Assembly: GCF_026242055.1 (NCBI RefSeq)
Contig: NZ_JAPJDL010000003.1
Coordinates: 382,796 to 446,795, forward strand
Origin: Lentzea sp. NEAU-D7
GTDB taxonomy: Bacteria; Actinomycetota; Actinomycetes; Mycobacteriales; Pseudonocardiaceae
Length of the DNA stretch: 64,000 nucleotides
Reading direction: 5' to 3'
The notes under the pieces were generated by a model, which was not told where the DNA came from, did no database searches, and saw only the letters and a program-made list of their open reading frames with translations. Each line of letters opens with the position of its first letter. The stretch's first letter is position 1. Both the position numbers and the translations under genes were made by a program. Shown here piece by piece: positions 2,868-16,300 of the stretch.

Positions 2868-2883
2868 TCGAACCTGTGTTCGA
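2868..2883 (+). promoter_or_regulatory. SOS box (LexA operator)
   Basis: TCGAACCTGTGTTCGA is a perfect inverted repeat TCGAAC-N4-GTTCGA. It matches the established actinobacterial/Gram-positive LexA consensus CGAAC-N4-GTTCG. It touches a TAGGAT -10-like hexamer (2884-2889), which places the expected transcription start at about 2896. LexA bound here would block the promoter of the DprA-like/phosphoribosyltransferase pair until DNA damage. Confidence 0.85.
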
Positions 2884-2895
2884 TAGGATGTGACA

Positions 2896-3789
2896 GTGGT
2901 GAACCGGCGTGAACAGGCGGCGTTCCTGCTCGCTCTTCGCGACAGCGAGCGCAGCTGGGCCGACGTCACGAGCGCCGTGGAGGACGCGGGTTCCGCCCTG
3001 TCCGTGCTGGAGTCGCTGATCGTTCCCGAGCAGCCGACGCTGGACCACATCGCTCCCGACCTGGCCGGCCGTCTGGACCTGGTGCAGAAGGAGATCGACT
3101 CCTGGGCGGACGAGGGCATTCACCTCGTCACGGTGCTCGACGAGGAGTACCCGGTCCAGCTGCTCATGGTGCACCAGCGCCCGCCTTTCCTGACCTGCAA
3201 GGGTTTCCTCGACCCCGCCGACCAGTTCGGCGTCGCCGTCGTCGGCAGCAGGCACGCGAGCGCACGAGGGCTGCACATCACGCGCGAGATCGCGACAACG
3301 CTGACCAAGCACGACATCACCGTCTTCAGCGGCTTGGCTGCGGGCGTCGACACGGCCGCGCACCGTGCTGTCGTGGACGCCGGAGGTCGAACGGTCTCCG
3401 TGGTCGGCACAGGCCTGCGTCGCTGCTACCCGGCGGAGAACGCGGATCTCCAGCAGGAGATCGCCCGGACCGGCGCGGTGCTGTCCCAGTTCTGGCCCGA
3501 CGCGGGTCCCGCCAAGCACCACTTCCCGATGCGCAACGCCGTCATGAGCGGCTGCAGCGTCGCGACCGTCGTCGTGGAAGCGGGCGAACACAGCGGCACC
3601 CGCATCCAGGCGCGGCTGGCGCTGGAGCACGGCCGGCACGTCTTCCTGTTGCCCGAGGTCGTGTCCGGCACGACATGGGGCCGCGAGATGGCCGAGCGAC
3701 CGAACACGACCGTCCTGGAAGGTCCCGACCACCTGCTGCGCGTGCTGGACGAACTGCGCGCCGGAGTCCCGGACCTGATCGACCTCTGA
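2896..3789 (+). CDS. DprA/Smf-like Rossmann-fold protein, first gene of an SOS-controlled pair
   Basis: A 297-residue protein with a short helical N-terminus and a DprA/SLOG Rossmann domain from about residue 75. Motifs are VVGSRHAS, SGLAAGVDTAAH, VGTGLRRCYPAEN, the HHFPMRN block and VVVEAGEHSGT. Canonical DprA loads RecA on single-stranded DNA. This one lacks the C-terminal winged-helix extension of many DprA proteins and is not next to rnhB, yraN or comM genes, so it is probably not the housekeeping copy. GTG 2896 is chosen because TAGGAT ends six bases before it. GTG at 2890 and 2899 are alternatives. One base separates it from the phosphoribosyltransferase gene. This pairing recalls ShosA (DprA-like) of ShosTA systems. 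Confidence 0.85.
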   Translation: MVNRREQAAFLLALRDSERSWADVTSAVEDAGSALSVLESLIVPEQPTLDHIAPDLAGRLDLVQKEIDSWADEGIHLVTVLDEEYPVQLLMVHQRPPFLTCKGFLDPADQFGVAVVGSRHASARGLHITREIATTLTKHDITVFSGLAAGVDTAAHRAVVDAGGRTVSVVGTGLRRCYPAENADLQQEIARTGAVLSQFWPDAGPAKHHFPMRNAVMSGCSVATVVVEAGEHSGTRIQARLALEHGRHVFLLPEVVSGTTWGREMAERPNTTVLEGPDHLLRVLDELRAGVPDLIDL

Positions 3790-3790
3790 C

Positions 3791-4480
3791 GTGAGCCCGC
3801 TCAGCCGCATCTCCGAGAGCTACCTCAACATCCTCGTTCCCCCACCAGCACGTGGGCCGGACGTGTGCGACGTCTGCCGCAGGACCACCGGGGGATTTCG
3901 CCGGTGCTGGCAGTGCAACCAGCACTTCCAGTCCCACGGCGCCGAACTGGCCGACGAAGTCCTGCCGATCTCGATGGCGGTGGAAGGCGGTCAGCTGGTC
4001 CACGTGCTGGGCAACTACAAGAACAGCAAGGTCCCAGGCGTGCGGAAGCAGTTCACGAACGAACTGGCCGGCGTTCTCGCGACCTTCCTGGCCAAACACC
4101 GGCACTGCCCCGGCGAGTTCGACCTCGTGACGGTCGTACCGAGCACGAGGCAACGGGCAGACGGCCATCCGCTCGTCGACATCCTCGGGCGACGCCTCAG
4201 CACCACCCGCCCCCACTTCGCCGAAGTGCTCAGCACTTCTGGCGGCAACAACCGGCTGCTGCGGCCGGACGAGTACGTCGTCCACTCAGCAGTCGAAGGC
4301 AGGCGGATCCTGTTGATCGACGACCAGTGGACCTCCGGAGCCAGCCTCCAGTCATCAGCCGTCGCCCTCAAACGCGGAGGAGCGGCACGAGTCGCCGGAC
4401 TCGTGATCGGCCGGCGAGTCGATGCAGGATCGCCCGGCACGTTCGACTGGGACGTCTGCGTTGTCTGTCAGCACAGCTGA
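3791..4480 (+). CDS. ComF-like phosphoribosyltransferase, second gene of the SOS-controlled pair
   Basis: A 229-residue protein. Residues about 26-45 hold two CxxC knuckles (CDVC and CWQC) that probably bind zinc. The C-terminal half is a type I phosphoribosyltransferase fold with an intact PRPP loop, ILLIDDQWTSGAS, at about residues 173-186. GTG 3791 lies one base after the dprA-like stop and has no own ribosome site, so translation is probably coupled. ComF proteins serve DNA uptake, but PRTase genes joined to a DprA-like gene are also known as toxin/antitoxin anti-phage modules (ShosT/ShosA). The SOS box upstream favours a damage-induced stress or defence role. The target nucleotide is unknown. 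Confidence 0.8.
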   Translation: MSPLSRISESYLNILVPPPARGPDVCDVCRRTTGGFRRCWQCNQHFQSHGAELADEVLPISMAVEGGQLVHVLGNYKNSKVPGVRKQFTNELAGVLATFLAKHRHCPGEFDLVTVVPSTRQRADGHPLVDILGRRLSTTRPHFAEVLSTSGGNNRLLRPDEYVVHSAVEGRRILLIDDQWTSGASLQSSAVALKRGGAARVAGLVIGRRVDAGSPGTFDWDVCVVCQHS

Positions 4481-13369: not shown

Positions 13370-16300
13370 ATGCCAACACGTCGCCCCAGATGGGCGCGCG
13401 TGGCAATGACGGCTGCTGTGACAGCCTCACTGCTCGCCGATGCGACTGTCAGGCCGGCGCTGTCTGCGCCAGAGCCCGGAGTGGCAATCGCCAACGTCGA
13501 AGAGGTCTCGCCGAAGTGGTGGGAAGGTGACGACTTCGTCGTCACCGGCCGTGGCGACACCCACGGATATCACGTCCTGATCGGTCTGGAGAACCGGAAG
13601 TACGCCTTCACACCGCTCGCCAGCATCCAACCGGGTGGCTACGACGGTGACCAATGGCTCGGCTACACGTGTGTCACCGGCGACCGGTCCCATGTCGTGG
13701 TTTCGGTTCTACCGCGCGGTGCGGTGAACCGCCCAACGCTGCGCGACCGAGGTGCGTCCGTCTACGCGATCAAGATCGCGGACGGCTCGGTCAGGCCACT
13801 CGCCAGCGGCGTCGCGTTCAAGCAGCACGCGGTGGGCTGCGGCACCGGCGACCAGGTCGCGATGCTGCGCCACCTCGAGGTGGACCAGGCGAAGACCGAA
13901 CTGCTGCGTGGTTCCGCGAGCACGGCGAAGGTGGAGTCCGTCGCCACCGTGAACACACAGCTGACCTGGGCGGTGCCCAACGGGCCCGACCGCGTGATGG
14001 CGTTGCGGGGCAGCGAGATCGTCACCGTCAGCCGCAAGGACCAGGCGCCGAAGGTGGTCGGCAAGGCGCAGGGCCAGGCGTTCAAGCTGCTGGCAGCAGC
14101 CGACGACCAGGCTGATCTCCTGGTGCTGAAGGACAACCAGGTCGCGGTCGAGCGGCTGGCCGGGGGCAAGCTCTCCGAGGTCGGCCGCGGCGACGTGCGC
14201 AAGTCGGCTCTGCTCCAGGCGGTCGGCGGCACCAATGTCTCCTTCGGGCTCGCGAACGCCAGTTCCCATGTGCGCAACTTCCCTCAGCCAGTGGTGCCCA
14301 AGGACGCGGAGGGCAAGGGAAGCCCTTCTCACGAGTCACCGCCGCAGGCGGTCAGCACCAGGGGCAAGATCGTGCTGGCTCCGACGAAGGCGAAGACCGG
14401 GAAACCGGCCGCGGATGAGACCGCGCCCGCCGTGACCAAGCGTCTGTTCAAGGCCGACTCCGGGCAAATGGTTCACGGCTCCTCGCCGGAAGGTCAGGCG
14501 GCAACCACCTTCACCGAGATGCCCGCCTCCGGTCAGATGGTGGCGAACGCGCAGACACCCACCTGCGGCGTACCCCGCAACGATCCGAGCCGGATGGCCT
14601 ACGGCCCGACCAACAACCAGGTCAGCTGGGCTGTCGAAATGGCAACGCGTGGCGCGTTGAAGGGCCCGAACGCACGCCCCGCGAACTACCGCGGTAGTGG
14701 CCTCCCCGCGTACAGCCCGAGCATCGACTTCGAGTTGGCGCCGATCAAGCCGTCCGGTGGCAGTGTTCCCTCTGCGATCATGAACGGGGTGCTCGCTCAG
14801 GAGAGCGCCTATCGGCAGGCTTCACGCCGCACCCTGCCCGGCTCCGGCGGCAACTCCGTGGTCAGCGACTACTACGGTGCGCACGGCGGTATCGACTCCA
14901 TCAACTACGCGGAGTCCGACTGCGGCTACGGCATCTCTCAGGTCACCACCGGCATGCGTGCGACGGACACCTCCATCTCGCCCAACGGCAAGGCGAAGAT
15001 CGCGATCGACTACGCCGAGAACATCGTGGCCGGCATGGGGATCCTGATCGACAAGTGGAACCAGCTCTACACCGCGGGTATCAGGATCAACGACAGCAAC
15101 CCCCAGTACGCCGAGAACTGGTACCTCGCCCTGTGGGCGTACAACTCCGGCATCCAGCCCGGACCGCAGTTCGGCAACACGACCGGCTGCACGCCGAGCC
15201 CCACCTGCACGGACCAGTTCGGGAACTGGGGTCTTGGATGGACGAACAATCCTCGCAACAACGACTACCCGCCGGCTCGTGACGTGTTCCTCCGACAGAC
15301 CTACGCGGACGCCGAGCACCCTGCGGACTGGCCGTACCAGGAACGGATCCTCGGCTGGGCCGAAACGCCCATCAAGAACTTCAAGGGCGAGGACGCCTAC
15401 CGGCCACTGGAACCGGTAGCCGGCACCGGACACGCAGTGACGTACCCGGACTGGAAGTCGTTCTGCAACTCCAGCAACAGCTGCGATCCCAACCAGAATG
15501 CCGAGGGCCAAGGCTGTCTGCGAGCGGACTTCCGCTGTTGGTGGCACTCGTCGGCGTCACCGAACAACTGTCAGACCAACTGCGCCAAGTCGCCCTACGC
15601 CCACCCGGCTGACTCCAGAGAACCTGCCGGCGAGAACCCTTGGGTCCCGGCTTGCGACTCGAACCTCGGTTCGAAGGCCATCATCGTCGACAACCTGAAC
15701 AACCCGGCGCAGAACGCGTTCTGCGGCACCAGGAACTGGAGCACAGCGGGAACGTTCAACTACACGGTCGGCACGAACGCAGGCGGTGACCCGATCGGTG
15801 CCATCGACTTCCACCAGGTGGCGACCGGGTTCGGCGCACACAACTACTTCGCGGGCAACGCACTGGCGAACGACCCGCAGCACCTCGTCACCGGCACTTG
15901 GACGCCGAACAACCTGCCGGCGGGTGCCTACCTCGTCCGGGCGCACATTCCGGTGGCCGGCGCATCGGCCGAGTCGGCGACGTACCGCATCACCACCCAG
16001 AACGGCGAGGTCAAGTCCAGGACGATCAACCAGCACGAGCACACGAACCACTGGAAGACGCTCGGTGTCTTCCAACTCGGCGCGAACGCCAAGGTCGTGC
16101 TGAACAACGTCACCGAGCGCGACACCGCCGGCGGCGTCGGCACGGTGTCGTGGGACGCCATGGCGTTCGTTCCGGCGCCGGGCAGGTACGAGGAGCACAC
16201 GGTCGAGGCGTTCGCGGTGTTCGACGAGGACACCAACATCGACACGGCGCCTCCCGCGAGTTGGGTCGCAGGACGCATGGCCAACAGGCAGAGCCTCTAC

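Follow-up and report, generated by a model that had tools for sequence, protein, structure and literature searches.

The 64,000-nucleotide stretch of the Lentzea sp. NEAU-D7 genome analysed here (contig NZ_JAPJDL010000003.1; hereafter the window) contains, close to its beginning, a DprA-like gene and a phosphoribosyltransferase (PRTase) gene arranged as a two-gene unit behind a perfect box for LexA, the repressor of the SOS response. The two genes and the box were observed directly, as were the conservation of the box and its link with the pair, and we read these together as a LexA-repressed, ShosTA-like toxin-antitoxin or defence cassette with putative LexA binding, toxicity and defence functions, a reading to which we assign a probability of roughly 0.68. 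ShosTA of Escherichia coli (PDB 8zva-8zvd; PADLOC PDLC02997/PDLC03012) is likewise made of a DprA-like protein, ShosA, and a PRTase, ShosT. The conserved LexA gate is the strongest part of this reading, and the membership of the PRTase in ShosT, together with the functional claims, the weakest.

The LexA box and the gene pair it accompanies

The initial annotation had placed a perfect LexA site against the start of a two-gene unit whose stop and start codons lie one base apart, and both parts of this observation are confirmed. The palindrome TCGAAC-N4-GTTCGA is followed without a gap by the hexamer TAGGAT, and the latter by the GTG start of the DprA-like gene, while the coordinates of the open reading frames leave a single base between the stop of this gene and the start of the PRTase gene (Table 1). 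Based on sequence, the promoter formed by the hexamer is probably leaderless or near-leaderless. In the window, two LexA-box matches were found at up to one mismatch, both of them perfect, where shuffling expects 0.24; the other one (15659-15674) lies within a long open frame, with no obvious gene start there. The whole genome (9.3 Mb) holds 13 perfect palindromes and none of the reversed pattern. One of the 13 is located some 240 bp before the matched part of the genome's lexA, and the motif therefore fits the host's own LexA; others accompany genes that, from their translations, we take by eye to be dinB, imuA'B and a radical-SAM (Rv2578c-like) gene, a pattern expected of an SOS regulon. Besides the box-bearing lexA, a second protein of this genome scores above the LexA family cut-off (L208; G000:C1:747458-748075).

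Table 1. Features at the locus, in window coordinates
Feature	Position	Strand	Remarks
Divergent gene	2213-2794	minus	start 74 bases from the LexA box
LexA (SOS) box	2868..2883		perfect palindrome TCGAAC-N4-GTTCGA, TCGAACCTGTGTTCGA; sequence and conservation
-10-like hexamer TAGGAT	2884..2889	+	directly abuts the LexA box; from sequence, putative promoter role
ShosA-like DprA-family protein	2890..3789	+	299 aa, predicted to have no winged helix; alternative starts 2896, 2899
ShosT-like PRTase	3791..4480	+	229 aa, intact loop for phosphoribosyl pyrophosphate (PRPP), three CxxC pairs

In a comparison of 24 Lentzea genomes, the intact pair was present at the same site in nine, all with a perfect box (9/9), and the box was still perfect at both sites where decayed remnants of the pair were seen (G015 and G016). 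At ten clean empty sites, in contrast, the divergent gene is followed by a gene for a short-chain dehydrogenase/reductase (SDR), and no box was detected even at two mismatches (0/10). As the box is kept with the pair and absent from the empty sites, it belongs to the cassette. The SDR gene, which starts 18 bases after the stop of the PRTase gene and had been proposed as a possible third member, was rejected as such because it is in place at 10/10 clean sites without the pair. G010 carries a lone decayed ShosA (241 bits) with neither box nor PRTase, G009 has no box (its SDR gene falls outside the stretch covered), and the site was not located in G013. The cassette is probably old in Lentzea and has probably been lost more than once. 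Across the nine intact loci, from nine species, all 12 fixed box positions and the TAGGAT hexamer are identical, compared to 14 of 45 positions just upstream; the hexamer reads TAGGAT in one of the remnants and CAGGAT in the other. Furthermore, G012 harbors a second, divergent pair elsewhere (ShosA 47% and PRTase 34% identical), with unrelated flanks and, again, a perfect box. Two small Lentzea proteins with a LexA box at or near their start (L005, approximately 1501-1832, perfect box; L079, 2572-2946 on the minus strand, one mismatch) look related by eye, as they share a stretch near WVDLG, and are once found directly beside a ShosTA-like pair; they are a candidate for an unnamed SOS gene family.

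Our census of 390 Pseudonocardiaceae genomes yielded 74 ShosA places in 70 genomes. Where a PRTase is adjacent (n=66), the box is perfect in 32, within one mismatch in 47 and within two in 58 pairs (23, 38 and 49 of 57, respectively, once the nine Lentzea orthologues are set aside), compared to 0, 1 and 3 of the eight places with no detected PRTase. The core GAAC-N4-GTTC was seen at 46/74 places, and other spacer lengths at 0-3. For the order, a sample of 40 loci that overlaps the family set and excludes the decayed lone ShosA of G010 gave 14 perfect boxes, 23 within one mismatch and 29 within two, where shuffles expect 0.00, 0.05 and 0.53, versus 0/20 at up to two mismatches for canonical dprA controls, taken as the next-ranked places in the list less G195 and the canonical copy of G010. 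Order loci outside the family had the box in 8/19 cases at up to one mismatch (hand count), and in the class sample beyond the order, in which L139, L199 and L200 were not recounted because they already belong to the order set, 4/25 loci had it at up to one mismatch and 7/25 had the core. The search for pair and box across genomes thus turned out in favor of the initial annotation (Lentzea 9/9; Pseudonocardiaceae 47/66 at up to one mismatch) and, as in members of a LexA regulon, a consensus box abuts a -10-like element and is kept across species together with its gene.

Some actinobacterial loci depart from this layout. In three loci of the class sample, all from one family (f31; L192, L197 and L198), the ShosA promoters carry TAGAAC-N4-GTTCTA or a near variant, perhaps the local LexA operator. 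In G141 a DprA-like gene and a frame resembling a PRTase are divergently oriented, and a perfect box (L118, 3069-3084) lies between them. In a second actinobacterial subfamily (L113-L117) ShosA is longer and CxxC pairs abound in an N-terminal stretch of the PRTase; the LexA-like box (0-3 mismatches) starts 26 bases ahead of the ATG.

The LexA motif of Alphaproteobacteria is GTTC-N7-GTTC. In plasmid pairs from Rhizobium and Sphingobium it precedes the DprA-like gene by 108 bp and is the sole site per 3.8-kb stretch. With the short PRTase as query, a scan of 84,980 species genomes returned 111 relatives, and the proteobacterial counts given here rest on the best 80 of the 111, with class taken from record names. 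The exact motif was present upstream of the DprA-like gene in 28/42 alphaproteobacterial loci, not all of them independent as some rows are near-copies, where 0.42 would be expected from the rest of the loci; L274, in which no DprA was found, was excluded, and L235, with only 3 bases upstream, was scored as a miss. Motif positions range from -64 to -211 and the spacer letters vary widely, while other spacer lengths gave 0-4 hits and the reversed motif 2. In 23 alphaproteobacterial genomes, 18 ShosA-like genes had the motif (hand count), as opposed to 1/21 canonical dprA genes with 360 bp upstream and 2/21 with 660 bp. Loci of other or unclear class, which were kept separate, had it in 3/19 cases. 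Six of the 23 genomes (L237, L247, L275, L295, L296 and L306) also carry a third DprA-like gene about 1-3 kb from the ShosA-class one, which suggests a variant with two DprA-like proteins.

Assignment of the two proteins

The DprA-like protein matches PF02481 with 200 bits and the PADLOC ShosA model PDLC03961 with 198.7 bits (E 3.2e-59), and falls below the curated cut-off of the canonical DprA equivalog TIGR00732 (182.5 bits vs 191.15). Its predicted structure (predicted local distance difference test 93) consists of a helical N-terminal part followed by a Rossmann domain, and the last helix of the model ends at residue 291 of 299, in agreement with the earlier claim that the usual winged helix is lacking. 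E. coli ShosA likewise lacks the C-terminal winged helix, and its structure 8zva is among the best folds for our model (E 6.6e-19, TM 0.75/0.73). A tree of 44 rows separates the ShosA-like proteins of actinobacteria and proteobacteria from canonical DprA with a support of 94/97, slightly short of the star threshold; in it the P2-type ShosA of E. coli and Listeria DprA form long branches of unsure placement. Scores of the ShosA alignment over 397 genomes of the order fall in two classes, at 262 bits or more and at 174 bits or less, with one decayed copy at 241. Membership of this protein in the ShosA family is well supported. The antitoxin of PsyrTA/RqlHI belongs to the same family (PsyrA 108 bits, PsyrT 24 bits), but the toxin of that system is larger, with a PsyrT model of 689 positions, whereas only a short PRTase is found here.

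The adjacent PRTase has an intact PRPP loop, ILLIDDQWTSGAS, at residues 173-185, which includes DDQWTSG and in which D177, D178, W180, T181 and G183 do not vary in alignments of 15 and of 24 relatives. On this loop the initial annotation was right, while the two CxxC knuckles it reported are in fact three pairs (C26/C29, C39/C42 and C223/C226). CxxC pairs are also a feature of ComF; the match to the ComF family TIGR00201, however, reaches 33 bits against a curated cut-off of 233.55. With 229 aa and its CxxC pairs, the protein differs from the 424-aa E. coli ShosT, which has an extra N-terminal part. A scan of viral_contigs with the PRTase alignment found no relative. Two altered pairs (among P0042, P0050 and P0058) concern this gene: a metagenomic in-frame deletion fuses the beginning of ShosA to the end of the PRTase, and in Lentzea alba the PRTase is cut to 133 aa with ShosA retained at 289 aa. 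In decaying pairs, the PRTase seems to go first.

Evidence against a ShosTA-type module and rival explanations

Several results weigh against our reading of the pair as a LexA-controlled ShosTA-like cassette. The PADLOC ShosT model PDLC03962 matches the PRTase only weakly (28.1 bits, E 4.3e-7, over 74 residues); this model has no curated cut-off in PADLOC and is unspecific as a genome query, as it matches 330 of the 390 family genomes, mostly weakly. By fold, the ShosT match of the PRTase is tied with ComF, and ShosT, which was not among the 50 Foldseek matches listed, appeared on a second look; for the DprA-like protein, canonical DprA structures rank as high as or above ShosA 8zva. The PRTase aligns from ShosT residue 154 on and thus is without the N-terminal part of about 150 residues of the E. 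coli protein, although the short PADLOC ShosT model (237 positions) does without that part and gives 169.7 bits to a likewise short, 208-aa homologue from an E. coli plasmid. The structural comparison proposed in the initial annotation places the DprA-like protein equally close to ShosA and canonical DprA, and the PRTase equally close to ShosT and ComF. No defence island is visible at the locus, where the neighbors are HAD and SDR genes and others that we take by eye to be ino1 and a PadR-type regulator. As for the box, 18/25 class-level loci lack it even by the core motif, and so do, at up to two mismatches, 13/15 actinobacterial plasmid and phage loci, the exceptions being Gordonia phage Vasanti (43 bp upstream) and a Pseudonocardia plasmid, each with one mismatch; this survey matched 54 plasmid and 33 phage records, of which 17 loci plus Listeria H39 were looked at. 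CTGT-N8-ACAG was found upstream in 0/13 gamma- and 0/5 beta-proteobacterial loci, and neither at E. coli and Enterobacter plasmid pairs nor at Pseudomonas phage Riah; the P2-type ShosTA of E. coli has no LexA box, unlike the pair described here. The Enterobacter plasmid locus has a stray GTTC-N7-GTTC, and a perfect CTGT-N8-ACAG occurs, exceptionally, in Burkholderia phage Mana. Because the gate is common in two lineages but absent from the gamma- and beta-proteobacterial loci and from most of the plasmid and phage loci looked at, it is not a defining trait of ShosTA. What holds of the ShosTA-type module under LexA, as first put forward, is the pair and its conserved box, while the membership of the PRTase in ShosT, judged from its sequence, is weak.

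Among the alternatives, the one that deserves most attention, even though we deem it rather unlikely, is an SOS-induced DNA-repair operon in which the DprA-like protein would load RecA or protect single-stranded DNA and the PRTase would support nucleotide supply. LexA control is typical of repair genes, and a box is found at lexA in the same genome; in addition, among the nine Lentzea orthologues the DprA-like protein (82-94% identity) is far better conserved than the PRTase (56-91%) and may therefore be the main actor, and many Streptomyces DprA-like proteins, about 54% identical, are among the best 120 of 2941 homologues. However, the pair occurs patchily in a single genus, with decayed copies and clean empty sites, is carried by phages and plasmids, and includes a protein that matches ShosA, all of which fits an accessory cassette better than a core repair function. 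That the genes are instead a competence pair (dprA and comF) with a chance LexA site is highly improbable, and we rejected this identity, as the initial annotation had anticipated, because the same genome has its canonical dprA elsewhere (G000:C20), beside genes that from their translations we take to be comM and a recombinase (dnaX was also named by eye), so that the DprA-like gene of the pair is neither this dprA nor the only one. ComFC and canonical DprA do have similar folds, but both TIGR00732 and TIGR00201 are missed here, there are no competence neighbors, the distribution is patchy, and canonical dprA is without the box in 20/20 actinobacterial and 20/21 alphaproteobacterial controls. 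A box that serves the divergent gene, or that is a bystander to a pair transcribed otherwise, is more improbable still: the short distance of 74 bases would allow it, but that gene persists at the ten clean empty sites without any box, for which reason its ownership of the box was rejected, and the box accompanies unrelated flanks in the second copy of G012 and in other genera.

A putative SOS-gated circuit

Our reading of the pair as a LexA-gated, ShosTA-like cassette draws on what has been described for such systems. A DprA and PRTase pair from a P2-like phage gives protection from T7 and lambda, and the antitoxins of ShosTA-like pairs are identified as DprA homologues (Rousset et al. 2022, PMC9122126). 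A review describes ShosT as a PRTase and pyrophosphatase that disturbs purine metabolism, leading to DNA duplications, filamentation and death, and states that ShosA binds DNA and likely promotes recombination (PMC12593503); the triggers named for these modules are phage SSB-related complexes and T7 Gp0.7 (PMC10732053, PMC12593503). With regard to regulation, the LexA consensus of Streptomyces venezuelae is tCGAAC-N4-GNNCGa, and no phosphoribosyltransferase appears in the main text of that study (PMC9380542). The nearest precedent found is a LexA site predicted in silico at the dprA gene of Dinoroseobacter shibae, which is regarded there as a competence or gene-transfer-agent gene (PMC6473078). 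Our searches of the open-access literature brought up no account of ShosTA being controlled by LexA, though subscription papers may differ, and in a paper that names both, LexA concerns another system, AbpAB. To that extent the novelty claimed at the outset is upheld, and direct LexA control of a ShosTA-type pair looks new.

Based on its position and conservation, the box would allow LexA, sitting against the -10-like element, to hold shosA-shosT nearly silent. Following general knowledge of the SOS response, DNA damage or phage-disturbed replication would load RecA and lead to LexA self-cleavage, upon which, given their anatomy, both genes would be co-produced with the antitoxin first. By analogy with E. 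coli ShosTA (PMC12593503), the PRTase in the ShosT role might consume PRPP or nucleotides and add DNA stress, while the DprA-like protein in the ShosA role might bind DNA, promote recombination and restrain the toxin. As damage caused by the toxin would in turn induce the SOS response, the LexA gate would form a feedback loop: with repairable damage, ShosA would answer and LexA return, whereas unrepairable damage or phage takeover would end in growth arrest or death.

SOS-controlled toxin-antitoxin modules are known from E. coli in tisB/istR, symE and yafNO. Caulobacter higBA is also reported to be damage-induced (PMC13384398). In these modules the toxin is induced with the SOS response, as proposed here, but their proteins are unrelated to our pair and, unlike in those modules, the gate described here is found again and again in two phyla, each time with the LexA motif of the clade. 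Tentatively, and with somewhat less than even confidence, we propose that short ShosTA modules make up a widespread class of genotoxic toxin-antitoxin systems under SOS control, in which the LexA gate is built into the mechanism and re-coded to the local LexA motif (TCGAAC-N4-GTTCGA in Actinomycetota, GTTC-N7-GTTC in Alphaproteobacteria, and CTGT-N8-ACAG in at least one beta-proteobacterial phage, Burkholderia phage Mana), and in which a DNA-damaging toxin would make this gate a self-amplifying circuit that decides between repair and abortive death.

The ShosTA-like modules that carry this gate in many actinobacteria and alphaproteobacteria are probably switched on by DNA damage. A gate conserved with two operator codes in two phyla would mean that DNA damage is the intended switch of the module in these lineages, and it predicts that a toxin harmful to DNA, an antitoxin that promotes recombination and the SOS response are joined in a feedback loop. 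It further suggests that such modules may be triggered by drugs that damage DNA and by prophage induction, and an upstream LexA box offers a simple filter for picking the copies worth studying.
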